42,321 nt of DNA from an uncultured Spirochaetaceae bacterium. Lineage in GTDB: Bacteria; Spirochaetota; Spirochaetia; Sphaerochaetales; Sphaerochaetaceae. Below, one piece after another: positions 893 to 42,321 of this stretch (positions are counted from its first letter, which is position 1; every line of letters starts with the position of its first letter). The stretch covers positions 1 to 42,321 of the forward strand of contig OMYY01000025.1 in the NCBI GenBank assembly GCA_900315435.1. Direction: 5' to 3'. The position numbers and the translations under genes were made by a program. The notes under the pieces are model-generated. The model saw only the letters and a list, made by a program, of their open reading frames with translations. It was not told the DNA's origin and ran no database searches.

Positions 893-1076
893 TGCTGCCT
901 CCTCGAGTAGGGATCCTACTCGTTTTAGATTTTGGAAGGACAAGAACAGAAAACCGTAAGTTTTCCCCACGCTCTTGCTTCATTCATATTGTGAGAATTG
1001 GTTATGGATTGTCGTCAAATCTATTCAATCCAGGCATAATGAGTCTTGATAGCAGCACTTTTCACATAACGAAAAA

Positions 1077-1089
1077 TTATAGATTGTAA
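1077..1089 (+). promoter_or_regulatory. Possible LysR box upstream of the LysR gene
   Basis: TTATAGATTGTAA fits the T-N11-A pattern with partial dyad symmetry (TTA...TAA). It lies 43 bases upstream of the LysR start, in the region divergent to the CYTH-like gene, where a LysR protein typically autoregulates. The motif is short and common in AT-rich DNA, so this is only suggestive. Confidence 0.25.
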
Positions 1090-1131
1090 CAAAATCCATC
1101 TGATACAATTGATACGAACAGGAGAAAACCC

Positions 1132-2016: not shown

Positions 2017-2373
2017 AAGCCCACATGCTTTCCGGAGGAACACGTGTTGCTTGTCATGGGTCATTCCTTTCACAAAAAAGAGTTGCATCCTACAAAAACG
2101 ACAAGAAACCGAACGGCAGTCAATGCATGGCAGAATTTGCAACAGATGGAAGTTCTGCACATTACAATTCTCAACCCGCTTCATGATACTCTCTCGCCCA
2201 GTATCTCGAAGATTTGCCAGCACAGCCGGAACTGTGCCGGCAAATCTTCCCCGCCACAAGACCATACTCTTCTGGGGAAAGGCGCGGATGTCCTGGCCAG
2301 GAAGCGATTCTTAGGCGCATAGCCTTGTTCTTCCGCTTCCAGTGGAAATGCACCTAACCACAGAAGATATGAT
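2017..2373. other. Gene-free interval after the LysR gene
   Basis: No convincing coding region was seen on either strand in these 357 bases. The notable content is a near-perfect hairpin (listed separately at 2208-2249). A weak GAAAGC/GCTTTC stem just after the LysR stop is too short to call a terminator. Confidence 0.5.
2208..2249. repeat. Near-perfect 18-bp inverted repeat
   Basis: The two arms, GAAGATTTGCCAGCACAG and its complement, match at 17 of 18 positions around a 6-base loop. Neither side is followed by a T-run, so it is not a typical intrinsic terminator. It sits between the LysR gene and the convergent secreted-protein gene. It may be a transcriptional pause or barrier, or a palindromic repeat element. 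Confidence 0.6.
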
Positions 2374-4344: not shown

Positions 4345-4489
4345 CTTTTTACCTCTCAATTTAAAATGTCTATGGAAGTGTTTTGTGACTTTCAGACCCC
4401 ATACCATCTTTCCTTCCTGGAACAATCTCGAGATTCTCTCCGTCCCCAGCTAAGGAACAGGCGGCTTTTCAGAAAGTCCTTCATAAAGC

Positions 4490-5353
4490 TCAACGTCTGT
4501 CAATGTTAAGAGTATTTATTCCTGAACCTAATATTTTTTCTATAATAACAGGCATCTCTCTATTCATGAAATTTCTTGTGAAATGATATGCACTAGAACG
4601 GCTTCTACAACTTCTCACACTTCGCCTAATTTTTCTAAATTGGTCGTTCATTCGTAATTCTTCCAAATAGGCAAAAGCATCTCCGCCCACTCGTTTCAAA
4701 CAATCATAAAGATCTGATTCTAATTCCATTAGCATGAAATAAAAATTTGCAATATGGCCAAGTTGGTTTACAGATCTTTCGCTCCCCTCATACAAATCTC
4801 CTAAAATATGAGAATAATATACAATAATTGCAATTGCTTCTGCCTTAACTATTTGCTGCTCATTTCTTTCAATGCCAAAAGCAGCAGCAACCGCCGGAAT
4901 CAGCACTTTATCACGACCAAGTTCCCACCTATCAAGGTACTTGTTTGTTTCAATACCATCTTCACCTTTCATTGTCCTATCTCTATAGTCGTAATAAAAT
5001 CCTTGATGATTGTAAGCTCTGTGACTTCCTCCGCCTATTGAAAGAAATTCAGAATATGCTGGAAAGCTGTAATCAAAGCCTGTCCTCGTTTTTTTTACAT
5101 TATCCTGTAAATCTTTATATTTCTTTTGATCCTTGTTCATGCCTTGTTCATCAATTGCAAAAGCAGAAGCATCTGAAACTATCCAATAAGAATGGAGGAC
5201 ATCAGGACTGCTTTTTTTTGCAAATGAATAATAATCCGAACTGTCATAAATGATATAAAGGATGTCTTCATTGTGACCTTCTGCGTTCTTTGCAAAACAC
5301 GTAAAGGATAATCCAAGAATGATACAAAACAGGGATAGTTTTTTTAAAAGCAT
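4490..5353 (-). CDS. Secreted protein with conserved His/Asp motifs, possible metal-dependent enzyme
   Basis: The 287-residue product starts with a signal peptide (MLLKKLSLFCIILGLSFTCFA, cleavage near residue 21). Two motifs stand out: SHRAYNHQGFYYDYRD (His111, His116, tyrosines) and YYSHILGD (His182, Asp186). An RWELGRDKVLIPAV helix lies between them. An H...HxxGD arrangement is reminiscent of helical zinc-dependent phospholipase C/S1-nuclease-like folds, but I cannot assign a family with certainty. The ATG overlaps the end of the small membrane-protein gene upstream by 10 bases, which suggests translational coupling with it and with the FtsK-like gene. The gene is AT-rich. The function is unassigned; the motif-based enzymatic guess is inference. 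Confidence 0.7.
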   Translation of the reverse strand: MLLKKLSLFCIILGLSFTCFAKNAEGHNEDILYIIYDSSDYYSFAKKSSPDVLHSYWIVSDASAFAIDEQGMNKDQKKYKDLQDNVKKTRTGFDYSFPAYSEFLSIGGGSHRAYNHQGFYYDYRDRTMKGEDGIETNKYLDRWELGRDKVLIPAVAAAFGIERNEQQIVKAEAIAIIVYYSHILGDLYEGSERSVNQLGHIANFYFMLMELESDLYDCLKRVGGDAFAYLEELRMNDQFRKIRRSVRSCRSRSSAYHFTRNFMNREMPVIIEKILGSGINTLNIDRR

Positions 5354-5604
5354 TGACTCTTCTCCAATAATCCATATCTTTCCGACTCTGACACCACCTG
5401 TTCCTGCTGTGCGATTACTTCTTTCTGCTGCGTAATACGCTGGAAAAGGAATCTGCTTCCGAAACCTCCTATCGCTACTCCCCCCATCAACAAAGCCACC
5501 CCTACTGCCACGGCTCCAAGCATTCTCACCATCCTCCAAACATCGGGAATTTGGGACATAAAGCGTAGCCACATTCCGATTCGATGCACATTATACCATT
5601 TCAT
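5344..5604 (-). CDS. Small single-TM protein coupled to FtsK-like gene
   Basis: The 86-residue protein starts at the ATG that forms an ATGA overlap with the stop of the FtsK-like gene; an upstream in-frame start at 5640 is less likely. It has a basic N-terminus (about 25 residues), one strong transmembrane segment (MLGAVAVGVALLMGGVAIGG) and a short helical tail (FLFQRITQQKEVIAQQEQVV) that could form a coiled coil outside or inside the membrane. Overlaps on both sides tie it into a three-gene unit with the FtsK-like protein and the secreted protein. It could be the membrane adaptor for either. No family recognised. Confidence 0.65.
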   Translation of the reverse strand: MKWYNVHRIGMWLRFMSQIPDVWRMVRMLGAVAVGVALLMGGVAIGGFGSRFLFQRITQQKEVIAQQEQVVSESERYGLLEKSQCF

Positions 5605-9518: not shown

Positions 9519-10514
9519 TCAACAACGATGAAATTCAGACAGCATATTGAATGCGTCATTGATACGAATCAGTTGCGTTTCGGCAAACGACCGCATCTTC
9601 GGATTCCTCGAATAATGATCAGGATGCCAGAAACGGACCAGGTTCTTGTAGTACGAGACAACCTTGTTCCAATCTTTGTCCCAATTCGCATCCAATTCCC
9701 TAGCTGGAAAAGAGTTGATATCGAAAAGCCCACTGTAAGAAAGCCTACGCATCCCATCAATGAGATCAGTCCTCCGCTTCAGGAACTCTTTACGGCTTGC
9801 TTCATTCGGAAGCTTTTCGAGAAAATCGAAATTCGATGAAAGGAAAGCCCATGCTTTATCGATGCGCGCCATTTGCGCTTCTGCCATCTTCTGAAACCAT
9901 TTGTCCTCGAAATGTTGGGGAGACAAGAAACGGACAAAGGCTTTGTAACTCGCAAGACATTCTCGCTTGATGTCCTCTGTTGCATCCGTCCCGCCCAACT
10001 TTGCACAATCGACTCCCAGGACCCCTCCATGCCAAATCAAATCCATCAACGTCGGTATGGCGTCAGCTATCGCATCGTCATCCTCTTTTCCCTCGCCCTC
10101 TCGTGCAGTTCCACACTTGATGATCTGCTTGTAGGAAAAAGGAATGGGAGAGCCCTCCAAATCGCGATACGAAATCTGCTTCTCGGTATGGGCAAGCAAC
10201 TCTTCCACCAATTCCATATCGAATATGAATCCGTATGGAGCGAAAGAGGAAAACAGCCGCTCGAACTCATTCCTTCGCAAATCCTTCCCTTCCGGGAGAG
10301 GAAAGACAATACGATCTCCTTTCCCATTCGAGAGTTCCATATGGAGATTTGTTACCCTTCCTTGTAGTCTGGAATAGTAACTTGTATCATAATCTCCATA
10401 GAGAAACAGCTTCACGCTGCCCGAGAACAAACGCATATACAATTTCTCTGAATTGTCTTGCGTGCGCACTTCACCATTCCATTTCAAGGTCGTATGCTCC
10501 TCTTTCCCACGCAC
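9519..10514 (-). CDS. Protein with two C-terminal J-like modules, one HPD and one SPQ
   Basis: The first 170 residues (beta-rich, acidic) match nothing I recognise. The C-terminal half contains two similar segments. One is YKAFVRFLSPQHF with AEAQMARIDKAWAFL. The other is YKNLVRFWHPDHY with AETQLIRINDAFNML. The second is the helix II-loop-helix III part of a J domain with intact HPD at 297-299. In the first the tripeptide is SPQ (198-200), which should not activate Hsp70. A typical helix I is missing in both. The start is uncertain: GTG at 10514 overlaps the preceding gene, and a TTG at 10487 has a better-placed GAGGAG. It lies 30 bases upstream of the membrane J-protein gene and was probably derived from a relative of it. 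Confidence 0.7.
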   Translation of the reverse strand: MRGKEEHTTLKWNGEVRTQDNSEKLYMRLFSGSVKLFLYGDYDTSYYSRLQGRVTNLHMELSNGKGDRIVFPLPEGKDLRRNEFERLFSSFAPYGFIFDMELVEELLAHTEKQISYRDLEGSPIPFSYKQIIKCGTAREGEGKEDDDAIADAIPTLMDLIWHGGVLGVDCAKLGGTDATEDIKRECLASYKAFVRFLSPQHFEDKWFQKMAEAQMARIDKAWAFLSSNFDFLEKLPNEASRKEFLKRRTDLIDGMRRLSYSGLFDINSFPARELDANWDKDWNKVVSYYKNLVRFWHPDHYSRNPKMRSFAETQLIRINDAFNMLSEFHRC

Positions 10515-11100
10515 TCACCATCCTGATGATCCGGCTTGCATATTCCTGGTCCCTCCATTTGCGTACTCCGGGGTGCGGCATTTCGAGGAACAGGGGCCCC
10601 TCATCATCCGCATCCTGGTATGCCCTTTCATCGAGTGATTCGTCATGAAAGTGCAAATGCTGGAGGTGGTAGGAAAAGTATCCTCCGACAAGGTCGTTCC
10701 AAAGGAGGGAACAGGTTCCGCCGAAGATGACGATATCGGGCTTTGCAGCTTCCATTTCCGCCAATACGCGAATTCGGTTCTGGGCATACAACATCTCCAG
10801 TCGTGACCAGGAAGTACTCGATCCTCCCGGATGCTCTCCGATATTGATCCAGGCGATGTCACGCAAGGAGGCTTTCACCTCGTCGTCATAGGCATCGAGG
10901 TCTTCGGCGTCTTCCGCTCCCTGCAGGATGCCATACGAGGACAACGCAATTCTCCGGGGGACTTTCTTGTCCACCGGAAGATAGGTATCCACCCATCTCT
11001 GTACGTGGAAAGATTCATCTCTCGAATTGGATTCTTTCAGCACCCAACAAATCTGATATGATGCGTTCCAATACCGCTTTTGATTGACAATACTGTACAT
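10471..11100 (-). CDS. Uncharacterised protein, possible uracil-DNA-glycosylase-like fold
   Basis: The 209-residue protein starts at an ATG with a strong GGGGGAGGAG site, 19 bases after the FtsK-like gene. Features suggestive of the uracil-DNA-glycosylase superfamily are an N-terminal RRIALSSYG segment, LRDIAWINIGEHPGG (a strand like those ending in an active-site Asn), AKPDIVIFGGTCSLLW (a PD-hydrophobic-GG strand) and LFLEMPHPGVRKW (a late HP motif). The canonical GEAPG motif is absent. The fold is therefore a guess from motif order; a nucleotide-processing or nucleic-acid-binding role would follow if it is right. Its 3' end overlaps the tandem J-protein gene. Confidence 0.6.
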   Translation of the reverse strand: MYSIVNQKRYWNASYQICWVLKESNSRDESFHVQRWVDTYLPVDKKVPRRIALSSYGILQGAEDAEDLDAYDDEVKASLRDIAWINIGEHPGGSSTSWSRLEMLYAQNRIRVLAEMEAAKPDIVIFGGTCSLLWNDLVGGYFSYHLQHLHFHDESLDERAYQDADDEGPLFLEMPHPGVRKWRDQEYASRIIRMVSAWERGAYDLEMEW

Positions 11101-11119
11101 GTACTCCTCCCCCAGGCAC

Positions 11120-11803
11120 TCATGCCGTGGGTTGCAATAGCTGACGCAGACCGTGTTCCATTCGCAACTTCACGGGTTCTCCCCACCATCTTTCGCTGTA
11201 GAGCAGCGCTTCGTCACCCATGCGGGTGGGAACGTCAAGGATGATGCATGAGGGAATGACAGCCCGCAACGCATGGGAGAAACTCTCAACGGTGATGCGG
11301 GATGTGCGGAGCACGATATGGATTCCGCACATCCGGCCGTCAAGGGCAAGGTGGCGGATCTGTCTCTCGAATCTGCTCCTGTCCGCTTCCCACAGCCAAA
11401 GGAACTCATCGACGACCACGAGCAATCTTGCCATCACGTTTCCCGTCTTCTTCTGGTACTCCACGCAATCCCGACTCCTCGTCGACAAGATCGCGTCCCT
11501 CCTTGAGGGAATCTCCCGTTCATTCACGTAATCGATGGCGGTAAATGCATCGCAGAGGTCCAGGTCGGAAGTCCAGAGGCTCTGGGGATTTCCGTCAAAA
11601 CGGGAGAAACGCGCTCCGATGAGCAAGGCCATGTTCGTAGCATCGACCCCCCATGCGCAATGCACCAGATACTCCATGAAATCCGAATCTTCCGGTGCAT
11701 ACACCATCACGCCGGGCGTGCGTCCCAAATCCATCACTTCGTCTTTCCCCTCCTCGGTCTTTCCGAGCCATACGGGGATGGATTCGACAGGGGAATGATC
11801 CAT
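11120..11803 (-). CDS. FtsK/SpoIIIE-like core protein with degenerate Walker A (copy 2)
   Basis: A 227-residue paralogue of the protein at 5601-6272. The layout is the same: IPVWLGKTEEGKDEVMDLG entry strand, a P-loop position reading PGVMVYAPEDSDFM (30-43) with no Lys or GKS, Walker B ARLLVVVDEF (125-134) and MCGIHIVLRTSR (158-169) late in the core. Both copies keep P-[D/E]-x3-FM in place of the P-loop, so the loss is shared and conserved rather than random decay. The ATG at 11803 follows AGAGGAGG at good spacing, which fixes the start. It lies between the WYL regulator and the UDG-like gene, probably co-transcribed with both. A scaffold or non-hydrolysing partner role is inferred. Confidence 0.75.
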   Translation of the reverse strand: MDHSPVESIPVWLGKTEEGKDEVMDLGRTPGVMVYAPEDSDFMEYLVHCAWGVDATNMALLIGARFSRFDGNPQSLWTSDLDLCDAFTAIDYVNEREIPSRRDAILSTRSRDCVEYQKKTGNVMARLLVVVDEFLWLWEADRSRFERQIRHLALDGRMCGIHIVLRTSRITVESFSHALRAVIPSCIILDVPTRMGDEALLYSERWWGEPVKLRMEHGLRQLLQPTA

Positions 11804-11878: not shown

Positions 11879-12844
11879 TTAATGCCACGTTTCTTCCGGG
11901 GGCCAGTCGGAAGAGACCAGCGTGCAATGGTTGCTCTCTTTCCTGATCCATTCCTTTGCGCCGTACAGACATCGGGTTCTTCCGGTAAAGAGAATCTCGC
12001 CGTCGGGCAGCTTTGTGATGGTGACGCTCTTCGGCCATTGCTGCTGCATGCGGTACCATCCCTGCCAGGAATCGAATCGCACGGTGAACGCATACTCCTT
12101 TTCTTCCCAGAAGGGGCCGAACGGATCCTCGAGCCTTCCATCATAAGGAAGCTTTTCGGGCGGGTTGGCGACTTCCAGTACCTGAGGAACATCCATGATC
12201 CGCTCAAGCGCATAGGTCCTGAGCGCTCCATCTTCCACCTTCTGGGCGTTGAGATAGATTCCTCCGTCATAGAAGAAGAGATAGAGGGGAAGCACCTCCC
12301 TCCGCCCTTGTTTGGTGTTCCCCGCATTGACGTAGTCAAAGGCAAGGCACTGGTTCTTTCTGATGGCGGCAAGGATGGCCTCCAGAGCCGGTTTCGCCGA
12401 GGGAGGAAGGATCTTCTCGACGGAAAGCGCATTGTGGACCATGCACGCACACGAAGGGTTCCTGACCCAGTTCACCTTCTTCCACAACCCCTCCGCCGCA
12501 TCCTTGAGCACGGGCACCTGCCTGGACAGGTCCATCATCAGCGCGAAAAGAAAACTCTCCTCCTCGCTCAACCCGAGCGAGGGAAGCTGGAGGTTCCACA
12601 GGCTGTCCGGAGAGATGCGGTAAATCGTCCGCCTATGGTCATTGGGATCCTTGTCCTCATCTACGCACAGCACACTCCCATTGGCATTGAAAGCCTCCAG
12701 GCTGTCAATCAAGCTCTTCATGGTCCATCGGTCCAGACCCATCTCCCTTGCAAGCTCGGTCACCGTCACACCTTCCGGCCTCGCCATCTTTTGAATGACC
12801 TGCAGCAGCAAGGAAAGACTCTCCATCATGTTGTGTTTCCCCAT
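11879..12844 (-). CDS. WYL-domain transcriptional regulator
   Basis: The 321-residue protein has an N-terminal helix-turn-helix (GVTVTELAREMGLDRWTMKS then LIDSLEAF). A central WYL domain follows, recognisable around CLAFDYVNAG and REVLPLYLFFYDGGIYLNAQ with ALERI. It ends with a WCX-like C-terminal domain. WYL regulators bind ligands, often nucleic acids or nucleotides, and frequently control defence or stress loci. A GGAGG lies 8 bases before the chosen ATG at 12844. It heads the leftward FtsK/UDG-like/J-domain gene row with a 75-base gap, and diverges from the AlbA_2 ATPase gene. That position suggests it controls the row. Confidence 0.85.
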   Translation of the reverse strand: MGKHNMMESLSLLLQVIQKMARPEGVTVTELAREMGLDRWTMKSLIDSLEAFNANGSVLCVDEDKDPNDHRRTIYRISPDSLWNLQLPSLGLSEEESFLFALMMDLSRQVPVLKDAAEGLWKKVNWVRNPSCACMVHNALSVEKILPPSAKPALEAILAAIRKNQCLAFDYVNAGNTKQGRREVLPLYLFFYDGGIYLNAQKVEDGALRTYALERIMDVPQVLEVANPPEKLPYDGRLEDPFGPFWEEKEYAFTVRFDSWQGWYRMQQQWPKSVTITKLPDGEILFTGRTRCLYGAKEWIRKESNHCTLVSSDWPPEETWH

Positions 12845-27538: not shown

Positions 27539-27612
27539 GGGGGCTTAGCTCAGTTGGCTAGAGCGTCTGCATGGCATGCAGAAGGTCGTCAGTTCAATTC
27601 TGATAGCCTCCA
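27539..27612 (+). tRNA. tRNA-Ala (anticodon GGC)
   Basis: The 74-base sequence folds into a full cloverleaf. The acceptor GGGGGCT pairs with AGCCTCC, including the G3:U70 wobble that defines alanine tRNAs. The D arm is GCTC...GAGC, the anticodon stem is TCTGC/GCAGA with loop ATGGCAT, and the T arm is GTCAG/CTGAT with TTCAATT. CCA is not encoded. An integrase gene starts just downstream, so the tRNA 3' end is the likely phage attachment site. Confidence 0.95.
27585..27612 (+). other. Probable prophage attachment site (left end)
   Basis: The 3' half of the tRNA-Ala gene is directly followed by a tyrosine-integrase gene and phage genes, the usual layout after integration into a tRNA. The exact core cannot be set because the right-hand copy is outside the window. 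Confidence 0.5.
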
Positions 27613-27708
27613 TACATTAATTCCTTGCGTTATAAAGAAATAACGTCAGTCATCACTGCTTGGTGTGACCAGTTGTGTTCCACCAGGCAGGATGCAAAAG
27701 GAATTTTC

Positions 27709-28836
27709 ATGCGCTACCACGCGCCATTCACCCTCATCAAACGGAAGAAAGTCTGGTATTACCGCGTCTATGACGAATGCGGGGAACGCCACACCTACAC
27801 GACTGCACGCACGAACAAGCTCGAGGCGTACCAGTATTGCTCTGACCTCCAGAGCCAGGGCCTTCTCGGTTTCTCCGCGTCCGGTCTCCCGACAGGAAGG
27901 ATGACTTTCGCGGACTTCGCGGCGGACTGGTGGACGCCTGCCTGCAGGTACGTGCGGGAATCGTCCCTGCTGGGAAGGCGCATCGGCAAGACTTATATGG
28001 AGCAGGCGGCCCGCATCCTCTGGAAGCGGCTCGTCCCCAAATGGGGCAGGTGCCTGCTTTCCGCGATCACCCCGGCCGCAATAGAGCAATGGGAGATGGC
28101 TCTCGTGCAACGCGAGGGCCTTGCCCCGAAGACCGCCAACTTCTACAAGGGAATCCTGAGCACGATGCTCGGGCAGGCCGTGCACGAGGGGCTCATCAAG
28201 GAGAACCCTTGCAAGGCGGCCCGCACGATGAGTGCGAGGGCCACCGAAAGGCGGGGAATCCTCACCCTGGAGGAAGTGGCCAGGCTCTTCGCGTCCCCTG
28301 ACGTCTGGGGCGGCGACCTGGTGGCCATGATCGCGAACATGACCGCCGCATGCACCGGGATGCGCAACAGGGAGGTGGCGGCACTCAAGGGAATGGACAT
28401 ACAGAAAGGTTTCATCCATGTCGCGCATTCGTACAACCGCATCGAGGGAGAGAAATGCACAAAGACCGGTGACGTGCGCAACATCCCCGTACCAGGATGG
28501 TTGGAGAAACGCTTGCGGCAGCTCTACATGGGAGATGACCGGTATCTCTTTTCATATGACGGTGAAAAACCCGCATCCACCCAAACTTTCGTAAGGAACC
28601 TGCATGACGCATGCGACAAGATTGGAGTCGACTGGAAGGCCAGGAACATCGTCTTCCATTCCTGGCGCCACTTCCTCAACTCCCTCCTGATCAACAATGG
28701 AGTTCCGGAAAGCGTGACCCAGCGCATGACGGGACACACGACCGATGCGATGACGGAGCACTACCTGCACTTCGACGCGACCCAGTTCGCCGGGGTGCTC
28801 GACGTCACGTCGGCAATCGTCAAGGATACGAGATGA
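27709..28836 (+). CDS. int: Phage tyrosine integrase
   Basis: The 375-residue protein has an N-terminal Arm-type domain (FTLIKRKKVWYYRVYDECGE) and a SAM-like core-binding domain (FADFAADWW to NPCKAAR). The catalytic domain has the active-site Arg in ACTGMRNREVAAL, HSWRHF (His and Arg), TGHTTDAMTEHYLHF (His and the nucleophilic Tyr). ATG at 27709 follows AAAAGGA; an in-frame extension upstream has no ribosome site. It would integrate and excise the element at the adjacent tRNA-Ala. It is the only recombinase gene visible in the window. Confidence 0.92.
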   Translation: MRYHAPFTLIKRKKVWYYRVYDECGERHTYTTARTNKLEAYQYCSDLQSQGLLGFSASGLPTGRMTFADFAADWWTPACRYVRESSLLGRRIGKTYMEQAARILWKRLVPKWGRCLLSAITPAAIEQWEMALVQREGLAPKTANFYKGILSTMLGQAVHEGLIKENPCKAARTMSARATERRGILTLEEVARLFASPDVWGGDLVAMIANMTAACTGMRNREVAALKGMDIQKGFIHVAHSYNRIEGEKCTKTGDVRNIPVPGWLEKRLRQLYMGDDRYLFSYDGEKPASTQTFVRNLHDACDKIGVDWKARNIVFHSWRHFLNSLLINNGVPESVTQRMTGHTTDAMTEHYLHFDATQFAGVLDVTSAIVKDTR

Positions 28837-28999: not shown

Positions 29000-29527
29000 A
29001 TGGCAGTCCAGATGAAATACGGTGTCGAGGATGTTGCAAGGTACGTGTTGCTGGCATCCGACAAGGCGAACCATCCTGCATCCAATCTAAGGCTTCAGAA
29101 GCTACTCTACTTCACTGACGGTTACTATATGGCAATGCACGGAGAAAAGTCCGATTTGTTTAGAGAAAATTTCTGCGCCTGGAAATATGGTCCTGCCGTG
29201 CGTGAGGCGTACTTCCTTTTCATGCCGAACGGAGCCGACAGGATTCCCAAGGAACAATACGAGAACAAGGAGACTGCCTCTTTCAATGAGGCCACCAGAA
29301 GATACAACTTTATCTCATCGCCGTGGAATCAGGACATTATTTCAGAAAATGATCGGGGCTTCATCGATAATATCGTGAAACTTCTTGCTCGCTACGACGA
29401 CTTCACTCTCGTCGACATTTCCCATGACCCAAAGGGCCCATGGGCTAACCACTTCAACGGAGATTCGCGTTCCATCATTCCGAAGGAAGAAATCCGTCAG
29501 TATTTCAAAGGATTGCTGAGAAAATGA
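29000..29527 (+). CDS. Panacea-domain protein (probable antitoxin)
   Basis: The 175-residue protein has a Panacea (SocA/GepA, DUF4065-type) domain: a VARYVLLAS helix, the signature LRLQKLLYFTDGYYMAMHG, then FCAWKYGPAVREAYFLF. Panacea proteins serve as antitoxins that neutralise many unrelated toxins, and some are adaptors for protease degradation. GAGAGGA precedes ATG 29000. Its stop overlaps the start of a two-TM membrane-protein gene (ATGA), the close coupling expected of a toxin-antitoxin pair. It sits in the integrase region of the prophage, where superinfection or maintenance genes are common. Confidence 0.8.
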   Translation: MAVQMKYGVEDVARYVLLASDKANHPASNLRLQKLLYFTDGYYMAMHGEKSDLFRENFCAWKYGPAVREAYFLFMPNGADRIPKEQYENKETASFNEATRRYNFISSPWNQDIISENDRGFIDNIVKLLARYDDFTLVDISHDPKGPWANHFNGDSRSIIPKEEIRQYFKGLLRK

Positions 29528-33008: not shown

Positions 33009-33239
33009 TCACATTTCTTGAGGGAGATGCCTCGCACGGAGCTTGTCTGATATCACCCGGATTGCCCTGGCGACAGTAGAGTCGGAGCAATTCAACTTCA
33101 TGGCTATCTGATAGTTGTACAAGCCGTGTAGGATGCGGAGGTTGTAGACCTGGGTCTGGAAGTCCGTCAGGCCTAGAGAGTCTCTGAGTGCCAGCTTGGC
33201 CCTCAGGTCAAGGAAGTCCCTCGCCTGCTTCGCTGTCAT
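33009..33239 (-). CDS. Small HTH protein (sigma region 4-like)
   Basis: The 76-residue protein is almost all helical. DSLGLTDFQTQVYNLRILHG, then LYNYQIAMKLNCSDSTVARA, reads as a helix-turn-helix like region 4 of sigma factors or late-gene activators. ATG at 33239 is preferred to ATG 33254; neither has a strong ribosome site. It lies between tail-fibre and lysis genes on the late strand, which fits a phage transcription regulator. Confidence 0.6.
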   Translation of the reverse strand: MTAKQARDFLDLRAKLALRDSLGLTDFQTQVYNLRILHGLYNYQIAMKLNCSDSTVARAIRVISDKLRARHLPQEM

Positions 33240-33303
33240 GTGACTATGGTACATCTAGTTTCTCTGAATGTAGATGAAACAGGCGAATTCTGGGTTGGTG
33301 AGA

Positions 33304-33786
33304 TTAATTTGGCTCGCTTGGCCACCTTATTTCGTCCGGGAATCCCGCCTGCTCGGGAATGTTTCGCAACTCCTCGAGATACGCAAGCACGGCCCTGTAC
33401 TGGCTTTCCGTGTCCGTGGTCGAGACTCCCAGCGCCGTCTGCGTCTGGTAGCGCTCAACACGCCACATCACGTCCTCGATGAGGCCGTCACGCTTATCCC
33501 GGAGCTCCTCTGCCTTCTGCTCGGCCGTGAGCGCCGCCCATCGTTCTTCTTCGGTAGGAGGCTCTGGGTTTTTCGGCTTCTCCTGGTATTCCCAGCAGGT
33601 ACCGTTCCAGTAGATGTCGAAACCAGCCTTCTTTTCTGGTGGCTCGATTGTGGTGCCGTTGGCTGGCACCGGGAAGAACCGTTTGTCCCCTGCCTTCTCT
33701 GTAGCTACAGGATCGATGGCGGTCACCCGCTCACCCTCCATCAGCCTGCCATTGGCATCATGCTGCCAATACTTTGTTCCTGTCAT
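33304..33786 (-). CDS. Putative tail-fibre assembly protein
   Basis: The 160-residue protein starts at an ATG with AGGAGG 6 bases upstream. It has short beta/turn-rich elements (MTGTKYWQHDANGRLMEGER, FDIYWNGTCWEYQEKP), a Pro/Glu-rich hinge, and a helical C-terminal part (EEERWAALTAEQKAEELRDK, then RDGLIEDVMWRVERYQ). Proteins with this order and place, right after a fibre gene, are commonly tail-fibre chaperones or assembly proteins. It lies directly outside the left inverted repeat of the invertible cassette, as the corresponding genes do in other fibre-switching phages. Confidence 0.55.
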   Translation of the reverse strand: MTGTKYWQHDANGRLMEGERVTAIDPVATEKAGDKRFFPVPANGTTIEPPEKKAGFDIYWNGTCWEYQEKPKNPEPPTEEERWAALTAEQKAEELRDKRDGLIEDVMWRVERYQTQTALGVSTTDTESQYRAVLAYLEELRNIPEQAGFPDEIRWPSEPN

Positions 33787-33822
33787 TTCAATCCTCCTAT
33801 TGTCATATTTTGCTTTATGTCT

Positions 33823-33838
33823 ATAACGGCGATTCTGG
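33823..33838 (+). repeat. Left inverted repeat of the tail-fibre cassette
   Basis: ATAACGGCGATTCTGG is identical to the reverse complement of 34374-34389. Both copies encode Asn-Gly-Asp-Ser-Gly in the same frame of the respective coding strands, so strand exchange here keeps the reading frame. Confidence 0.85.
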
Positions 33839-34121
33839 TAACCTGATTGCTCCTGGATTGCCAGACATATTCGGCTATACGTGGGAGATGGATAGAACGC
33901 GCGGAGGCTGGAACAATGCCAATGCAAACAGTCTCTATTCCGCTGGAAGAGACAACGCCTTTTATCAGACAGACCGCAAATGGTATGGTGACGGCAAAAG
34001 TGGCTCATCGGCGAGCACATGGTACGTCGGGTTCCGCGCAGGCCGCAACCAGCCAATATATGGTGCGTCCGATAATGTGCGTCCCCCATCTGTCTCCCTC
34101 CATCTCGTCATCGGCTACTAA
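33823..34121 (+). other. Silent alternative C-terminus of the tail fibre
   Basis: On the plus strand this segment encodes 98 residues beginning NGDSGNLIAPGLPDIFGYTW and ending PIYGASDNVRPPSVSLHLVI then GY, with a TAA stop. It has no start codon or ribosome site of its own. It aligns with the last 89 residues of the fibre encoded on the opposite strand (NGDSGILLAAGLPDIVGS...TIPLHLIIGY): the ends match while the middle differs strongly. Inversion between the flanking repeats would fuse it to the fibre body in frame. Confidence 0.85.
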
Positions 34122-37012
34122 TATCCAATAATCAGATGGAGGGGAATGGTGCTAGGAGTGACCGATGTTGATCTGCCATAGATTACGTTTGACCTTGACG
34201 CCTTCATCTCCACCGTGCGATGCCCGCCGGTATTGGCGTGCTTGTATCCGCTTTCAGACTCGTAGTAGCCGGTCTTGGCAAACGCTCCAGTTGCAGACTC
34301 TACTAGACCGTCGCCATGTCCAAAGAAGCGCAACGAACCGACAATGTCAGGCAATCCGGCCGCAAGCAGGATTCCAGAATCGCCGTTATTGCTAATGCGC
34401 AGATAGCGTCCCTCTACGTCTGGCGCGATGATCGTATTATTATCGGTGCCATATTGGAATACCTTGCCATTACCAACAATCCCCACTTGCTCGATGAGCG
34501 CGAACAATGCTGCATATGATCCACTCCGTGATATCGAGAAACTGTTGTCAAGCAACAGGAATCCCGTAGGCGGTATCACCGTGCCTTCCGGGTCCTTCTG
34601 ACAAAGGTGCCACAGGATCATGCCGCGAAACAGATTGCGAGACAAATCAACGTCGCCGACGTAGGCATGACTAAAGGGCTTAGACGGATAGCCAATATCC
34701 ACCCCCTCATGTACAGGCGTGATGTTGGATACAAGTATGCCTTCCCGCTCACCAGCCACAAGCAGATGCAAGCAGGGGTTGTCTACGTACCCAGTCCGTG
34801 GATATTGCATGACAGAACCGTCCGAGAGGATAATGGTCATGCTGTTCGTTGTGACATTGACGGAAAAAACAGATTTAAGTCCGTGTTTGCGGTCACTGTA
34901 CACACTTCCGCTATCAGGCGCCGCAACAAATACCCCTGTACCTCCAAATGCATTCCAGATAGAAGACGCAGGAACAGCAGTCGTGAAGTCATTCGAAGAA
35001 ATCACGCTTGGCTTATCGTCAACCTTCGTGAACCTAAATGGGATGTTTGAGTATTCTGGAACAACTAGCGCGAATGCATTCGCATTGGTTGCCTTGCTGT
35101 TATAGAATACAAGCCCTTTGGATTCCACACTTGGCAATTGTGATCTAAACACAAAGAATCTATAATAGGCGTATTCGTTTCCTAGCCAAGCTTCGACAGT
35201 CGACCCAACTGGGATGCCATCGGGGTACTGCAATCCAATATTCTTTAAAACTGTTTCGTTTCCTGCTCCGGAATAGAGCAAAGAGCCATTAGGAGCATAC
35301 AGTTTGATTGTCGGCGTCAGACCGTCCCATCTCTGACCGCCTCTGCCAAAATCTGCAGATATTGACGTAATTCCATAGTACGGGATAGTGAACCGCCTGA
35401 TACCGTAGTATCCATCGGGGGCTTTCTGTATCGTAAGCAGGCTGTTGTCTAAATCATTTCTTTCTACTATTCCTGTTTGCGCGTCTACTTCCAAGAAGGT
35501 ATGGAATCCTATTTCTCCCGGAGTTGTATATATAGCGCCATCATACCCAATGCCATTTGCTATTGCTTCTGCATTGGCTGCCTTGGCATATTTAATACTA
35601 GTGTTAGGCTTTATGGCCATTGCGTCGATAACACTCGATACTAAATAATACTTGTTGTTATTTGGGACGACATAATCTATTTGGTTTACTGCTATCGAAT
35701 CTGCAACCGTTTTGAATACAGTCTCGCCTTTTTTGTTCGCTATTTGAGTTGATCCACCAACAATTGAGACATCTCGGAAAATCCCGCCAACAGCCTGCAT
35801 GTTGGCGGACTTGATGACGTTGTTAGGCCCGTCAAGCTTGTATCCGGCAGTCGGCTGTCCGCTTGCGTCTTCCTCGTAGTTCATCGACTGTATGACTTGC
35901 GACCGCAGGCTCTTGATGAATCCGGTCTTGGCCGCAATCGCGCCAAAGTACGCATTGACCGCCACACACGTGGACTGCACCCCGGAGCCCTGAGCGAGGA
36001 TGTCTGATAGCACGGTGCCCATAATCAGCGCGGTATTCGGATTGCCGGTCTGCATTGCGCTGTAGGTGATGGTGCCGCTTCCAGACACGCTCGCAATCAT
36101 TGGCGTGTTGGTAGATGTGTCGAGGTAGTAGTCGCCGCTCCAGATCGGGTCGTTGTTGTCGCTCCAGCTCTTGCTCGTGTCCCAGTTCGTCCCGAGATAG
36201 ATTGGCATGTACGCATTCCCGGTCTCCGGCTGCACATCCACGCTGACGGTCTTTGTCAGCCCAACCCCGGTCACGGCGCAGGAGACGCGGAACGGCAACA
36301 AGGCGACACGTGCTGCCACGCTGATGGTGCAGGTGGTCTTGTCTGACGACGGCGTGAGCGTGACCTGAGAAGATGTCGAGCTCCAAGTAATCGTGACCGC
36401 GCTCACTGCTACATGTATGAGCGTGCAGGTCGCCACGATTGTCTCCGCCGTCCTCGTGTATCCTCGCGGGCTGACGGAGAACGATTTTGCCGACAAATCG
36501 ATGTCGAAGTCCTTGATGCTTGCGCTGTCGCCGATGTCTCCGTAGATGGCAATCAGCTCTACGCTGGGGCTGGTCGTGCTGTCTGTGTACGTGATGACGG
36601 TCTTGCGCCACAGATACTTCTTGCTTGCGCTCATCGCCGGGATGGTAGTGCTGGTGATAGAGCTGGCGCTTGGAGCGGACTGAGTAGTCGTCGTGGCGTA
36701 GTAGTGGGCTATCGACGAGATTCCCCTGCCGGTAGCTCCTGTAGCGCCTGTTCCGCCAGTCTTCCCTTGTTTGGCATAGGTATATGTGACCGTGTCGGCG
36801 ACAGCATCGCTCGTGTAGTCCGTTATGGTGCGTGTCCAGAGGTACTGCCCCTCGCTTACATCAGGCACCGTGTTCTGCCAGCTGGTCGGCTGGGTGGACG
36901 CGGACGAACTCACGCCGTAGGTGACCGTCACGCTCTTGATGCCGTTGCCGGTAGCTCCCTTGGCTCCGTCGTTCACATTCGCTAGCGTGATGGAAGAACT
37001 CGCTAATGTCAT
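34118..37012 (-). CDS. Phage tail fibre with switchable C-terminus
   Basis: The 964-residue protein has two short Gly-rich linkers (GAKGATGNGIKS and GKTGGTGATGATGRG) between beta-rich repeats. A central region may be part of the tail tip (GSGVQSTCVAVNAYFGAIAA, near residue 340). Near the C-terminus a phage tail-collar domain follows (SGSYAALFALIEQVGIVGNG, then FQYGTDNNTIIAPDVEGRYL), then the variable tip NGDSG...RSNVIYGRSTSVT to HLIIGY. Such tips bind host receptors. The tip-coding 3' end lies in the invertible segment. The stop codon overlaps that of the alternative tip on the other strand. It follows the tail gene at 37014 with one base between. Confidence 0.85.
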   Translation of the reverse strand: MTLASSSITLANVNDGAKGATGNGIKSVTVTYGVSSSASTQPTSWQNTVPDVSEGQYLWTRTITDYTSDAVADTVTYTYAKQGKTGGTGATGATGRGISSIAHYYATTTTQSAPSASSITSTTIPAMSASKKYLWRKTVITYTDSTTSPSVELIAIYGDIGDSASIKDFDIDLSAKSFSVSPRGYTRTAETIVATCTLIHVAVSAVTITWSSTSSQVTLTPSSDKTTCTISVAARVALLPFRVSCAVTGVGLTKTVSVDVQPETGNAYMPIYLGTNWDTSKSWSDNNDPIWSGDYYLDTSTNTPMIASVSGSGTITYSAMQTGNPNTALIMGTVLSDILAQGSGVQSTCVAVNAYFGAIAAKTGFIKSLRSQVIQSMNYEEDASGQPTAGYKLDGPNNVIKSANMQAVGGIFRDVSIVGGSTQIANKKGETVFKTVADSIAVNQIDYVVPNNNKYYLVSSVIDAMAIKPNTSIKYAKAANAEAIANGIGYDGAIYTTPGEIGFHTFLEVDAQTGIVERNDLDNSLLTIQKAPDGYYGIRRFTIPYYGITSISADFGRGGQRWDGLTPTIKLYAPNGSLLYSGAGNETVLKNIGLQYPDGIPVGSTVEAWLGNEYAYYRFFVFRSQLPSVESKGLVFYNSKATNANAFALVVPEYSNIPFRFTKVDDKPSVISSNDFTTAVPASSIWNAFGGTGVFVAAPDSGSVYSDRKHGLKSVFSVNVTTNSMTIILSDGSVMQYPRTGYVDNPCLHLLVAGEREGILVSNITPVHEGVDIGYPSKPFSHAYVGDVDLSRNLFRGMILWHLCQKDPEGTVIPPTGFLLLDNSFSISRSGSYAALFALIEQVGIVGNGKVFQYGTDNNTIIAPDVEGRYLRISNNGDSGILLAAGLPDIVGSLRFFGHGDGLVESATGAFAKTGYYESESGYKHANTGGHRTVEMKASRSNVIYGRSTSVTPSTIPLHLIIGY
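34374..34389 (-). repeat. Right inverted repeat of the tail-fibre cassette
   Basis: This is the matching inverted copy of the repeat at 33823-33838, within the fibre gene at the junction of the collar domain and the variable tip. Similarity continues for about 30 more bases inward with scattered mismatches (CTGGATTGCC against CCGGATTGCC). The pair enclose 567 bases. Confidence 0.85.
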
Positions 37013-37013
37013 C

Positions 37014-38063
37014 TCAGCTCACCTCGCAGAAGAACGTGCCTTTGACATCGACTTGGTCATGCGAGACGCTGATAGCCTTCTTTTTGGACGTGCCTATCGT
37101 TCCGTATGTGACCGCAGTGGGAGAGAACTCGACCGCGTTGCCGTTCTTGTCCGTCATCGTCCATGTATAAGTAAGGGATGAACCTGTGGAATCAACCTCT
37201 ACCCCGTTCCTGTACACCTTGCAGACGAGGATGGTCGAGCCGGTATTGTTCTTGAAGTAGTTCCCCGCCGTACTGATGATGACGGCCTGATATGGGTCGC
37301 TGATGTCGGTAAAGGCGATGCCTTCAGATACAAAAGACTGGTTGTAGGTGTTGCTTGACGAGTCCGTGTCGGTAATAGTGCAGCGGAACATCGCGAACGA
37401 CTCAACCGATGCAGACGTGACCGAATATGTGTCGGATGTCGCTCCCGATATCAGAGACCACGTGGTCCCGTTCGTACTTTTTTCCCATTTGTACGACAAG
37501 TTCGTCGTGTCCTTTGTGGTTCCTCTGATAAGTTCCGCCTTGATCTGCAGGCTTGAAGGCTGGTCGTTTTTGAATTGTGTTCCTCCAGTCGCGTATGCCC
37601 GGCAGATGACAAAAGATGTTCCATTCTGCACTCTGCTGAACGTCACAACGATGGAAACAGGGAAAGTAAGCGAGAGAATCGGATCGAGGTAGTTTCCCTC
37701 GAACTTGTAGTCAATCTGGTTCACGTTCCCGACCAGCTTGTCCTGGCTTACCGAGAGGACGCCTGTCGTTGCGTTGACGCTCTCCCCGTTAGAGCCAGTG
37801 ACCACTTCTGACCATGAAGAGGCGCCTGCGACTCTTCGGTACCATTTGCGGTTCGTCATGCTCTCCACAAGACTGTCTGCCGTTCCCGCCTTGATTACCC
37901 TCGGCGTGAGCTGCAGACTGGTGCTCCCCGCCCAGGAAGGGTTGAGCACCTTGGCCGATACGTCATACAGCGACGTCAACGGCAGATTGCTGTCGATTCC
38001 CGTAATGAGGCTGATGCCGTCGGTGTAGTCCATCAATGTGAAGCTTGCGCTTGTCTTTGCCAT
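37014..38063 (-). CDS. Phage tail protein with Ig-like modules
   Basis: The 349-residue protein is Ser/Thr-rich and beta-rich, with repeated Ig-like motifs (LSYKWEKSTNGTTWSLISGA, then SVESFAMFRCTITDTDSSSN; later LTYTWTMTDKNGNAV and KGTFFCEVS). AAGGAG precedes ATG 38063. It lies between two other tail genes on the late strand. Its role is structural, probably part of the tail tip or fibre stem. No closer family name can be given. Confidence 0.7.
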   Translation of the reverse strand: MAKTSASFTLMDYTDGISLITGIDSNLPLTSLYDVSAKVLNPSWAGSTSLQLTPRVIKAGTADSLVESMTNRKWYRRVAGASSWSEVVTGSNGESVNATTGVLSVSQDKLVGNVNQIDYKFEGNYLDPILSLTFPVSIVVTFSRVQNGTSFVICRAYATGGTQFKNDQPSSLQIKAELIRGTTKDTTNLSYKWEKSTNGTTWSLISGATSDTYSVTSASVESFAMFRCTITDTDSSSNTYNQSFVSEGIAFTDISDPYQAVIISTAGNYFKNNTGSTILVCKVYRNGVEVDSTGSSLTYTWTMTDKNGNAVEFSPTAVTYGTIGTSKKKAISVSHDQVDVKGTFFCEVS

Positions 38064-38078: not shown

Positions 38079-39074
38079 TTAGATTTCCAAATCAACAGAA
38101 CAGTCGAAAACCGTTCGTCCATGGCAGTCATCAGGCGTGATGTCCACCGTCCTGTGTCCTATCGCCTTCGAGGACGAATTCCAACTCTCATCCGACTGTG
38201 CGTCGTCCGTTTTCCGTGTCCACCTGAATGCAGACTCGTCTATCGCGTCCGTGACCTCCCCGCCGTTGACGTACACTCTGCAAAACAAGGTGGTCGAGAC
38301 GTCGGGCATCCGGAAGACAGAACCGTTGGTCGATTCTATTACCACGGTGAACGACTTGCCGTCATCGCCGGTGTCTCCCTTGTCTCCATAAACTGCGAGG
38401 AGAGAGATGTATTCATGCGTCGTCCCGTTCTTGTATGTGATGACCTCTTTCTGCCACAAGTACTTGTTTTCCTCCGACATCGTCGGGATAGTCTGGCTTG
38501 TAACGACATTCGGCTGGTCCTGCGTGGCGGTAACCGCATAGGTATAGTCGATGCTCTTCACGTAGACCGCATCAAGCTTCCCCTCCACGTCGCCGTGGCT
38601 TTTGTTGTAAAGGAGCTTGTTCAACTCCGTGTCCCTGACATAGTAGGTCTGGAAGAGCGCCTGCAATGCCGCTCCATCGATAGTGCTCTGAGAATCCATG
38701 TCGTAGAACAGCTTGTCGACAGCGGCCTTCAATGCATCATATACGGAAAGATATTCCTGATAGGAAGTATGTCCATCATCGCTCTCGTTATCCAAACCCC
38801 ACATCTTGGCCTGCTCGACGAGTGTGCCGTACATGCCCTCGATGGCGAGCCATTGGCGCTGAAGCTCTTTCTTTTCCTTTGGTGTGAGGATATTGTCCGC
38901 CACAGCGTCACTGACACGTTTCTCGAGGTCGGCATACTGCAGCTGCAGCGTCCAGGTTCCTGCAGAAGACCGGACCGCTGTCTTGACGGCTTCCGCCCTG
39001 CTGCGGCTGTCGGCCCCGATCACCTTGAGACCGGAGACGACGAACGATTTCCCTGCAAGGTTCTGTTCCTTCAT
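38079..39074 (-). CDS. Phage tail protein
   Basis: The 331-residue protein has a helical N-terminal part (LEKRVSDAVADNILTPKEKK, then ELQRQWLAIEGMYGTLVEQA) that recalls the helical bundles of tail-tip host-specificity proteins. Beta-rich modules follow: YTYAVTATQDQPNVVTSQTI, then YLWQKEVITYKNGTTHEYIS with AVYGDKGDTGDDGKS. The YLW-K-VITY-NG-T-...-AVYGD motif is also found in the long fibre at 34118-37012 (YLWRKTVITYTDSTTS...AIYGDIGDS), so the two share a module. GGAGG lies 11 bases before the ATG. It is a structural tail component. Confidence 0.7.
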   Translation of the reverse strand: MKEQNLAGKSFVVSGLKVIGADSRSRAEAVKTAVRSSAGTWTLQLQYADLEKRVSDAVADNILTPKEKKELQRQWLAIEGMYGTLVEQAKMWGLDNESDDGHTSYQEYLSVYDALKAAVDKLFYDMDSQSTIDGAALQALFQTYYVRDTELNKLLYNKSHGDVEGKLDAVYVKSIDYTYAVTATQDQPNVVTSQTIPTMSEENKYLWQKEVITYKNGTTHEYISLLAVYGDKGDTGDDGKSFTVVIESTNGSVFRMPDVSTTLFCRVYVNGGEVTDAIDESAFRWTRKTDDAQSDESWNSSSKAIGHRTVDITPDDCHGRTVFDCSVDLEI

Positions 39075-39113: not shown

Positions 39114-42100
39114 TCAGCGCCGATTTTCCTGCCACTCTCCCCAGTTCGGCCCGAGCAGATACATGATCTCGCCCCGGCTGACCGCTTTCGTGACGCGGTT
39201 GATGGCGTTCGTCGGAGTGCCAAGGAAGCTCGATCCCGCGTCCTTTGCCAAGTCGAGGACATCCTTCATCCGCACTGTGCCGTCGGCGATCTTTCTCATC
39301 ATCCGGCCGACATCCGCCAAAAGTCCGCCGTCCCCTCCGTAGAAGCCCCGGACCCCTTCGGACAACGCTCCGCCAGCAAGTGGCACAATCGAGGAAGCCA
39401 GGTTGGCCATGAGCTCCCTGACAATCCGTCTCCGCTTCTTCTCCCCGTCGTCATCGTCCCCCTTCTTTGGGAGCCATACTCCGGAAATCAGCACCATGGC
39501 CGCGGCGTTGCAGGCCAGGTTGGCAATGATCGGCAACGCGCGACGGAACTCCCTCTGCCTGAGGTACATCGGCAGGTCGATGCACGCCATATTCCACAGC
39601 TGGAACGTCTGGTTGGTGAACATGATCGCCGCCCTCCGGATCGGGTCGCGCCACTTGCGCTGGATGTACGAGAGGTCGGTCGGCTGGGTGGTCGGCTGCG
39701 TCTCAGAAATCACCTGGCTTGCCTTGAAGACCGCCTCCCGCTCGCCCATGCCGTCCTCGATGTTTGTCCAATAGGACGCGAGCCACATCTGCGCGACGAC
39801 TGAGCGGTCTACGGCGTTTGCGAGCCACATGCCTTGCCAGGGCTTCTCGCTCTTGCCCGCATTGTCAAGGAACCGTCCAACCTTGTCCTTCCGCCCCTTG
39901 GCCCGCATGACGTCCAGGTCGATGTACCTCTTGGCGATGTCGGGCGCCTTCCTATAGATCATGGCCAGCGTCTGCGCACGCCTGGATGAAGCAAGCATCT
40001 CTCCCGCCTTCATCCAGTTTGCTGCCGACGTGTTGCCGATGGAGGCGGCCGCGGAAGGGGCCTGCTTGGCCGCCGTCACGAGGTTGTACGCAAGCGACCC
40101 TACCGCGCTGTGGCTGAGGAACGAGTTGAGCATCCTCTCGAAGTCGCTCATCTGGTTGAACGTGTAGGCCATGTCGTTGGCATAATCCTGCACCAAGGAC
40201 GCCATGGCCTTGCCGTACTTCTGCCGGATCATCCCCGCAAGCCCGCCGGTCTGGCCGAGCAGGAACTGGGCGTCCTGCACCCACTCATTCCAGGCAAGGA
40301 AGTGCTCCTCCTTCGCCACCTGGCTGTACCACGAACCGGTCACGTCGAGCTTCAGCGGATAGATGGCGTTCTCGTTGGCTTCCTTGGTGAAGTCTCTGTT
40401 GACCCGCGTCCTTTGCTGCTCCCTCTTGATGGCGGTCGGGCCGGCGAGCGTGTCCTCCTCGCCGACGCCGACTTTCGTGCCGTCCCCGACCATGGGGAAG
40501 TACCGGTCACGGCTTCCGAGCTCCTTGTTGAACTGCTCGTAGTACGCCTGCTCGATGCGTCCCCTGTTGCGCGCGAAGTCGCTGATCATCCAGTCGCCCC
40601 AGGCCTTCTCCCCTTCGGTCAGCTTGGAGATCGCGTCCGCCGCTTCCAGCGGGCTGATGCCGTTGCCGGAGATGCTGTAGAGCTTCTTCGCCTCGATCTC
40701 GTTCTGCCCGTAGACATACAGCCCGATCACCTCGCCCCGGGTCAGCTCCACCTTGGTGGCTCCTTTCTCGTAAGTGTACAGCTTCTCGTCAAGCTGTTCG
40801 GCAGTCACCCCGAAACGCCTCATCGCCTCACCGCCATCGGCAAGGCGCGCGTTCACGTTCCGGATCTGCGCGGTGTTGGCGAAGTATGCCTGCCGCACCA
40901 AGAAGTCGTACAGGACCCCTTCCTTGTCACCGTCCAGGATGCGGGCGATGCGCTGCATCTTGGCCCATACGCCGCGGTAGGAGTTCCAGAACTTCTTCAC
41001 CGCGCTGTCGGTGCGGTCGGCCTCCGGAATGGACCTGATGATGTCATCGCGCATGGCGTATGGGTTGAGCTGCTCACCTTTGGGATTGATGTTCCCTTGG
41101 CTGTCGGTCATCGCATAGACGGGAGCGTTCTGCCCGGTGAGCTCCTTGAAGTAGCCGGCAAGCACGCCTTGCCTCCGCCTGCGGGTCTGTGCCTGGCGGG
41201 ATGCAAGCGCCTCCCTCGCGTCTTTCCGCATCGTGCGCACCGCCTCGCGCAACGCAAGCAACTGTTCGACCGTCCATTGGCTCGTACGCACCCGGTCCCT
41301 GATGAGGCCGGCAACCTCCGGGTGGTCCGTCTGCGCAAGGTAAAACTCCAGCTGGCTGAGGCCCTTGGCGCCGTATGTGCCCGCATCCGACTCGATGGCC
41401 GTCTCCTGCCCGACCGCGAGCTTGCTTCCGGTGACCTGCCGCACGATGGAGAGCGCACCGTTGACGTCGGCGTCTATGGAATCCGACGGACCGCTCAGCC
41501 GCTTGATGGATGCGATGAGCGCACGGGCCGCCTGGCGCACACGCGAGGCCGACAGGCGCCGCTCCAGTGACGCGGAATGCTCTTCCAGCTTCCTGGCAGT
41601 CTCGTTCGCCTCCGTCAGCTCCCGGCGCAGCACCCTGACACGCTTCCGCCGGTCTTCCAGGTCCTTCTCCAGGTTCCAGATCTCGGTCTGCTTCTGCGTC
41701 ACCTGCCGGGCTTTCTCCTCTCCGTATGCCTGCAGAAAGTCCGCGTTCTGCTTCAGCCGGTCGTAATCAGGCTTTCGCTCGTTCTCAAGCCACAGCTTTC
41801 TGAGCAGGGCCTGATATTTTGTCTTGTACGCCTTGGCGTCTCGGCCGGCCTTGGCCTTGCCTTTCCCATCCAGCTCCTTGTTTGTCTGGTCCAGGAAGTC
41901 GTCGAGGCTCTTCTTGTACTTCTCGAGCGCCTTCTGTTGCCTGGCGGTTTCCTTCTGCTCCTTCTCCAACTTCGCCTTCGCCTCTTCGGCGGCGGTCTTG
42001 GCCTCGCCTGCCTTCTTGGCCGCAGCTGTTTTCTTTTGACTCAGGGTCTCCTTGGACTCCTTTTCGTCGCCCGTTCCCGCAAGCTGGCCGACCGGCGTGT

Positions 42101-42321
42101 TCCGCTCCTCATCGCTCAGCTGGGCGAGCGTCTTTGCCCCGCTCGCCTCCAGCTTCTTCAGGTCCTCGTCCGACTCGATGGCCGCCGTGCGGGCCTGGTA
42201 GCTGTCCATGATGCCGTCGTCGCCACGGCCCATGCCTTCCATCACGGTCTGGGCATACGCGTTGTTGGACTCGACGAAGTCCAGCACCTGGCGGTAGCGT
42301 CTCGGGTTCTCACGGATCTTG
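39114..42321 (-). CDS. Very large phage protein, partial (polyvalent/virion type)
   Basis: The frame is open to the right end of the window (IRENPRRYRQVLDFVE reads through past the first in-window GTG), so at least 1,068 residues are present and the start lies outside. A long Lys/Glu/Ala coiled coil (roughly the first 250 residues seen) is followed by helical, Gln/Arg-rich regions. The last third contains RDRYFPMVGDGTKVGVGEED, many hydrophobic helices (LACNAAAMVLISGVWL) and a FTNQTFQLWNMACIDLPMYL stretch. This build resembles the huge polyvalent proteins carried into the host by podovirus-like particles. The C-terminal helices may pass the membrane. The exact domain family should be treated as unknown. 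Confidence 0.65.
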   Translation of the reverse strand, partial: KIRENPRRYRQVLDFVESNNAYAQTVMEGMGRGDDGIMDSYQARTAAIESDEDLKKLEASGAKTLAQLSDEERNTPVGQLAGTGDEKESKETLSQKKTAAAKKAGEAKTAAEEAKAKLEKEQKETARQQKALEKYKKSLDDFLDQTNKELDGKGKAKAGRDAKAYKTKYQALLRKLWLENERKPDYDRLKQNADFLQAYGEEKARQVTQKQTEIWNLEKDLEDRRKRVRVLRRELTEANETARKLEEHSASLERRLSASRVRQAARALIASIKRLSGPSDSIDADVNGALSIVRQVTGSKLAVGQETAIESDAGTYGAKGLSQLEFYLAQTDHPEVAGLIRDRVRTSQWTVEQLLALREAVRTMRKDAREALASRQAQTRRRRQGVLAGYFKELTGQNAPVYAMTDSQGNINPKGEQLNPYAMRDDIIRSIPEADRTDSAVKKFWNSYRGVWAKMQRIARILDGDKEGVLYDFLVRQAYFANTAQIRNVNARLADGGEAMRRFGVTAEQLDEKLYTYEKGATKVELTRGEVIGLYVYGQNEIEAKKLYSISGNGISPLEAADAISKLTEGEKAWGDWMISDFARNRGRIEQAYYEQFNKELGSRDRYFPMVGDGTKVGVGEEDTLAGPTAIKREQQRTRVNRDFTKEANENAIYPLKLDVTGSWYSQVAKEEHFLAWNEWVQDAQFLLGQTGGLAGMIRQKYGKAMASLVQDYANDMAYTFNQMSDFERMLNSFLSHSAVGSLAYNLVTAAKQAPSAAASIGNTSAANWMKAGEMLASSRRAQTLAMIYRKAPDIAKRYIDLDVMRAKGRKDKVGRFLDNAGKSEKPWQGMWLANAVDRSVVAQMWLASYWTNIEDGMGEREAVFKASQVISETQPTTQPTDLSYIQRKWRDPIRRAAIMFTNQTFQLWNMACIDLPMYLRQREFRRALPIIANLACNAAAMVLISGVWLPKKGDDDDGEKKRRRIVRELMANLASSIVPLAGGALSEGVRGFYGGDGGLLADVGRMMRKIADGTVRMKDVLDLAKDAGSSFLGTPTNAINRVTKAVSRGEIMYLLGPNWGEWQENRR

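Follow-up and report, generated by a model that had tools for sequence, protein, structure and literature searches.

The window analyzed here, a stretch of 42,321 nucleotides, is a complete contig (C34) of an 85-contig assembly and carries on its minus strand a gene for a 964-residue tail fibre (34118 to 37012), with matches to PHROG tail and host-specificity families. Residues 12 to 164 of the protein correspond to a phage host-specificity module, and its C-terminus, composed of a collar-like region and a variable tip, matches the fibre of MT835830, in which a Tfa-like gene comes next. Upstream of the fibre gene and on the same strand, a tail protein (37014 to 38063; PHROG 3267, 2.1e-61), a tail-fibre-like protein (38079 to 39074; PHROG matches) and a large phage protein cut short by the contig end (39114 to 42320) are encoded. 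Downstream, a tail fibre assembly (Tfa) gene is found at 33304 to 33786 (minus strand; PF16778, 3.5e-12; PF02413, 5.6e-6; PHROG 188). Just past Tfa, positions 33009 to 33254 encode a small protein with weak matches to sigma factors or HTH proteins.

The final 89 residues of the fibre, together with the stop codon (34118 to 34387, minus strand), constitute the expressed tip (tip profile 2e-23). Facing it on the plus strand is a headless, silent alternative tip of 98 residues plus stop (33825 to 34121; tip profile 1e-17), lying in a frame that is open from 33705 to 34121 and has no plausible start codon. The stop codons of the two tips overlap in CTAA at 34118 to 34121. This tail-to-tail arrangement with an alternative tip devoid of its own start had been described in a sequence-only reading of the window, and was verified in the reading frames.

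The two tips are true homologues. They share 37% identity over the full tip length (E 1.8e-8 in a whole-genome search), and their aligned codons differ 46, 36 and 60 times at positions 1, 2 and 3, respectively, which is a coding pattern. Among 33 identical residues, 22 are specified by different codons; outside the repeat described below this amounts to 22 of 28 residues, and within it to none of five, indicating that the silent tip is old and coding-like and that the DNA of the repeat has been kept identical. As an open frame of 297 nt is by itself expected at 7% by chance, the frame taken alone is weak evidence, and it is the homology of the tips that carries weight. Decay of the plus-strand segment, with stop codons, had been put forward as an observation that would speak against an invertible cassette; the silent tip proved intact over its 98 codons and finishes in the conserved end of the tip family. 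Judging from the anatomy of the fibre, the tips would be the parts that bind the receptor, and the two may recognize different receptors. The structures predicted for the two tips had a mean pLDDT of 75 and retrieved no informative PDB entry, possibly owing to their having been modelled as single chains when the fibre is probably a trimer.

Inverted repeats and in silico inversion

Each tip starts at a copy of the 16-bp sequence ATAACGGCGATTCTGG, located at 33823 to 33838 (plus strand, start of the silent tip) and at 34374 to 34389 (minus strand, within the fibre gene, where the expressed tip begins). Base-level inspection upheld the coordinates and identity of these two inverted repeats, which delimit a segment of 567 bp, repeats included (33823 to 34389), and the translations confirmed that both tips open in frame with Asn-Gly-Asp-Ser-Gly (NGDSG). 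No further copy of ATAACGGCGATTCTGG within 3 mismatches exists anywhere in the window, and the 2.8-Mb assembly holds only two look-alikes elsewhere, each with 2 mismatches. Beyond the 16 bp, similarity runs on at 83% to 52 nt (in the left copy to 33874), an imperfect extension that is explained by the similar residues (LxAxGLPDIxG) with which both tips continue. Whichever centre is chosen within the repeat, its arms pair no better than random sequence, i.e., the site shows no dyad symmetry. Of 200 simulated prophages of 14.7 kb, 3 contained an inverted repeat of 16 bp whose arms lay within 2 kb of each other; since the repeats observed here are in frame at homologous points, a chance origin is far less likely than this fraction.

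Inversion of the segment in silico keeps the fibre frame and exchanges the last 89 residues for 98, lengthening the fibre from 964 to 973 residues and thereby reproducing the C-terminal swap predicted beforehand. The Tfa gene falls outside the 567-bp segment and is therefore constant.

Extent of the prophage

The attL core of the prophage coincides with the 3' end of a tRNA-Ala gene (tRNA 27539 to 27612; core 27593 to 27612, plus strand), and the same 20 bp occur on contig C50 at 28314 to 28333. This second occurrence is taken as attR, being an exact copy of the tRNA-Ala end, and the phage genes lie to that side of it where they would be expected. The phage genes of C50 encode tail proteins, a major head protein, a head-tail connector, terminase, and RecT- and RecE-like proteins. 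With attL on C34 and attR on C50, the prophage therefore consists of 27.6 to 42.3 kb of the window, an unassembled gap, and C50 from its first base to 28.3 kb. Both contig ends that border the gap are reached by long minus-strand frames still open there, so that the gap probably falls within one or a few genes; the large phage protein at 39114 to 42320 is probably continued on C50. A tyrosine integrase gene (27625 to 28836, plus strand; PF00589, 3.4e-17) lies next to attL, followed inside the prophage by a SocA/Panacea-domain (antitoxin-like) gene at 29000 to 29527. Near attR, in the C50 locus L116, two genes resemble, to the eye, those of an Abi_2-type protein (10415 to 11314) and an ImmA/IrrE-type protease (12162 to 12836).

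Two other contigs were considered as parts of the prophage. C23, carrying a Gin-like recombinase and a terminase-like gene, was dropped as right arm, given that the attR repeat lies on C50. Positions 42138 to 42321 of the window and 1 to 184 of C3 share 184 bp at 99% and then diverge; as the two contigs terminate at one and the same base and in the same direction, C3 is ruled out as a continuation of the window and represents another, related element of this genome. For the fibre and the prophage alike, IMG/VR, DNA comparison with relatives and, over most of the length, GenBank phages yielded no close relative. A portal search returned solely the C50 contig of the assembly itself.

Proposed switch

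The reading that we favour, with a probability of roughly 0.6, is a two-state tail-fibre switch; the prophage integrase is the leading candidate enzyme, at a markedly lower probability of its own. The constant fibre body and collar would stop at the 16-bp site, with one of two homologous tips beyond it and the second tip stored tail to tail in reverse orientation, lacking a start. Site-specific recombination between the inverted sites, probably by a tyrosine recombinase, would flip the 567 bp and join the other tip in frame, so that virions would carry one tip or the other, both being served by the Tfa gene outside the segment. That the segment inverts in this prophage is suggested by its sequence organization and by the rearranged tips of relatives with the same tip family. 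Weighing against the switch are the results that no recombinase adjoins the cassette and no close relative of the prophage turned up, the shortness of the att-like match and the decayed opposite-strand tip of G291 (see below).

Loci with the same tip family

A scan with the tip profile covered 87 loci fetched by tip alignments (28 viral, 37 genomic and a further 22 viral); in nearly all of them the tips are confined to a single strand, and tandem series of several tips are frequent. L139, for instance, holds a tandem same-strand array of eight short ORFs of this family (1 to 5599), and L046, L062 and L079 each hold five to seven collar-plus-tip genes in tandem on the same strand.

A few loci are arranged differently. 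In L066 (IMG/VR), the fibre is accompanied by two headless tips on the opposite strand, and GGGCGGRGATA is present at all three tip starts; a DUF4376 gene occupies the place of Tfa and is adjoined by an integrase-type recombinase gene. The last bases of this locus, 5164 to 5176 (AGATCGGAAGAGC), resemble an untrimmed Illumina adapter. L141 carries a fibre with five silent tips in alternating orientation and with repeated junctions, and between the tip array and a Tfa-like gene sits a tyrosine recombinase that has an arm-binding domain and is 33% identical to a second, integrase-like gene of the same phage. The recombinase of L167 is 93% identical to that of L141. These loci (L141 5377 to 8134, and L167; IMGVR_UViG_3300037400_005066 and IMGVR_UViG_3300038345_000229, respectively) have the layout of a fibre shufflon of six tips that possesses its own integrase-like tyrosine recombinase. 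L141 and L167 are 97% identical up to base 5472, which is the tip junction, and have different tips beyond; moreover, a tail-to-tail block is inverted between them at 90% identity (L141 5661 to 5781 versus L167 reversed, 2890 to 2770). Comparative evidence thus points to exchange of tips of this family at the junctions.

The headless same-family tips, repeated tip starts and adjoining tyrosine recombinases of L066 and L141 support a switch in the window. The earlier proposal of an alternative-tip cassette is likewise borne out: the anatomy fits, relatives of the tip family repeat this layout with a larger number of tips, and L141 and L167 differ by exchange and inversion of tips at the junction. 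These parallels also bear on a highly improbable alternative, a plain inverted duplication of the tip that never functioned as a switch and in which the repeat is left-over homology. The tandem, non-inverted tip copies common in other phages do show that extra tips accumulate without inversion, but such a duplication accounts neither for the recombinase-bearing loci of parallel layout, with their rearranged tips, nor for the exact in-frame 16-bp repeat, which lies at the same structural point and is identical despite diverged codons.

A third type of layout occurs in genome G291, a distant relative (C1:1218230-1218319; L037 13225 to 13377), where the fibre tip is intact and a truncated opposite-strand tip meets it tail to tail, in the absence of inverted repeats; the cassette is probably decayed or dead. 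Such cassettes can therefore die, and the window could by analogy harbour a locked relic, formerly invertible, that has lost its recombinase and become fixed for one tip. The failure to find a dedicated invertase (see below) is in keeping with this idea, which we nevertheless regard as improbable because the silent tip is intact over its 98 codons with a conserved end, and because the repeats are still identical although comparable codons differ.

Candidate recombinases

Whole-assembly searches for serine and tyrosine recombinases found no recombinase gene flanking the cassette and no dedicated invertase, although the unassembled gap between C34 and C50 could hide such a gene, or one could be missing from the assembly. 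The invertase gene hoped for beyond 42321 is not on the located right prophage arm, C50. Tyrosine recombinases are encoded on several contigs; within the prophage, the integrase at about 5 kb from the cassette is the only site-specific recombinase found. Serine recombinases are present only on C23 and C19, and on neither prophage contig; the C19 enzyme adjoins a TnpB-like gene and is IS607-like. An IS110/Piv-type invertase was absent from the whole-assembly search. The gene at C23:1992-2558 encodes a small serine recombinase whose nearest solved structure is Gin (9e-33). It is oriented divergently from a terminase-small-like gene (C23:1279-2558, L016), and the pair recurs in L145, from another species of the genus.

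Inversion might thus be driven in trans by a recombinase from outside the prophage, such as the Gin-like enzyme of C23 or one of the tyrosine recombinases of other elements that the assembly holds, and trans action was proposed by the authors who described an unflanked inversion of ~500 bp at CAGGGTTA in bifidophages integrated at tRNA-Met (Mavrich et al. 2018, PMC6109161). We consider this unlikely here: the C23 enzyme, whose pairing with the terminase-small-like gene extends to a second species, seems to have a context of its own, the window site lacks the dyad of Gin-type sites, and tyrosine recombinases are what the analogous loci of this tip family employ.

As no dedicated invertase was found, the prophage integrase is the leading candidate enzyme for the two-state switch. 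Tentatively, it could double as tail-fibre invertase by acting on att-like secondary sites. Within the window site, ATTCTGGTAACCT matches ATTCTGATAGCCT of the prophage's own att core at 11 of 13 positions, a post hoc comparison with p of about 0.01. An equal att match was obtained in 0.5%, 1.2%, 2.8% and 10% of random 32-bp prophage windows at word lengths of 13, 12, 11 and 10, respectively; the longest exact run shared by site and core is 6 bp, attained by 22% of random windows. Loci related to the bifidophages were located in IMG/VR through their att core. In L165 the inversion repeat is longer (CACAGGGTTATGAGTCCG) and includes the 10-mer GGGTTATGAG, which is also present, exactly, in the tRNA-Met att region CTCTGGGTTATGAGCCCAG of the same phages. 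Across 18.2 kb of bifidophage sequence outside att, the att region is matched exactly by 7 10-mers, three of which are at the inversion sites. L164 and L165 have common flanks that end at the site and middles that are unlike. All comparisons of att-likeness were drawn with the sequences already known and serve as leads rather than as proof.

Comparison with known inversion systems

The cassette has the general features of fibre C-terminus inversion, namely opposed homologous C-termini with inverted repeats at equivalent in-frame positions. The best-known examples, Gin of Mu, Cin of P1 and Min of p15B, are serine invertases encoded beside the segment that they invert; Gin-type crossover sites are dyads, and in Mu inversion also swaps the assembly gene. 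Like these systems, the window has tail-to-tail alternative fibre ends that would be chosen by inversion, and a fibre assembly gene is involved; unlike them, it has no adjoining serine invertase and no dyad sites, and its Tfa is constant. In the shufflon of plasmid R64, the tyrosine recombinase Rci brings about C-terminal swapping, the same logic as is envisaged here, but R64 switches a plasmid pilus tip adhesin, is multi-segment and has a dedicated rci gene. The arrays of L066 and L141/L167 share with the window the tip family, the place of the junction within the protein, headless tips on the opposite strand and a Tfa-like neighbour, and differ in having two to five silent tips and an adjoining tyrosine recombinase gene.

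The nearest published counterparts are the Rin shufflon and the unflanked bifidophage inversion. The Rin shufflon of Bifidobacterium prophages, which varies the C-terminus of a receptor-binding protein, employs a tyrosine recombinase and a short asymmetric repeat at each junction (PMC6109161). The window resembles it in placing headless variable C-termini by a constant N-terminal part and in having a short asymmetric repeat, without dyad, at both tips; the Rin array, however, has several tips and a dedicated recombinase beside it, whereas the window has one silent tip and no such gene. In bifidophages 689b-1 and Bb423phi2, integrated at tRNA-Met, the unflanked inversion of ~500 bp was seen by comparing the two prophages (PMC6109161). 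There, as in the window (567 bp, 16-bp site), a tRNA-integrated prophage has no recombinase beside the locus, and the 3' end of a structural gene is swapped with a segment of about 500 bp that has a short inverted site and unlike middles. The structural protein and the host group are different, and the inversion documented in the bifidophages is inferred in the window. By the tests applied here, the cassette is not a member of the Gin/Cin/Min group and works like Rin and the unflanked bifidophage systems.

The unflanked design raises the question of which enzyme flips the segment. Two unrelated unflanked cassettes with sites resembling their own att cores suggest a possible answer in the integrase; if this is true, dedicated shufflases such as that of L141 would be duplicated integrases. 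Fibre-tip switches are already known in other phages. To these the window adds a new fibre family and a new host group, and it would represent a compact, two-state case of a phage host-range switch.
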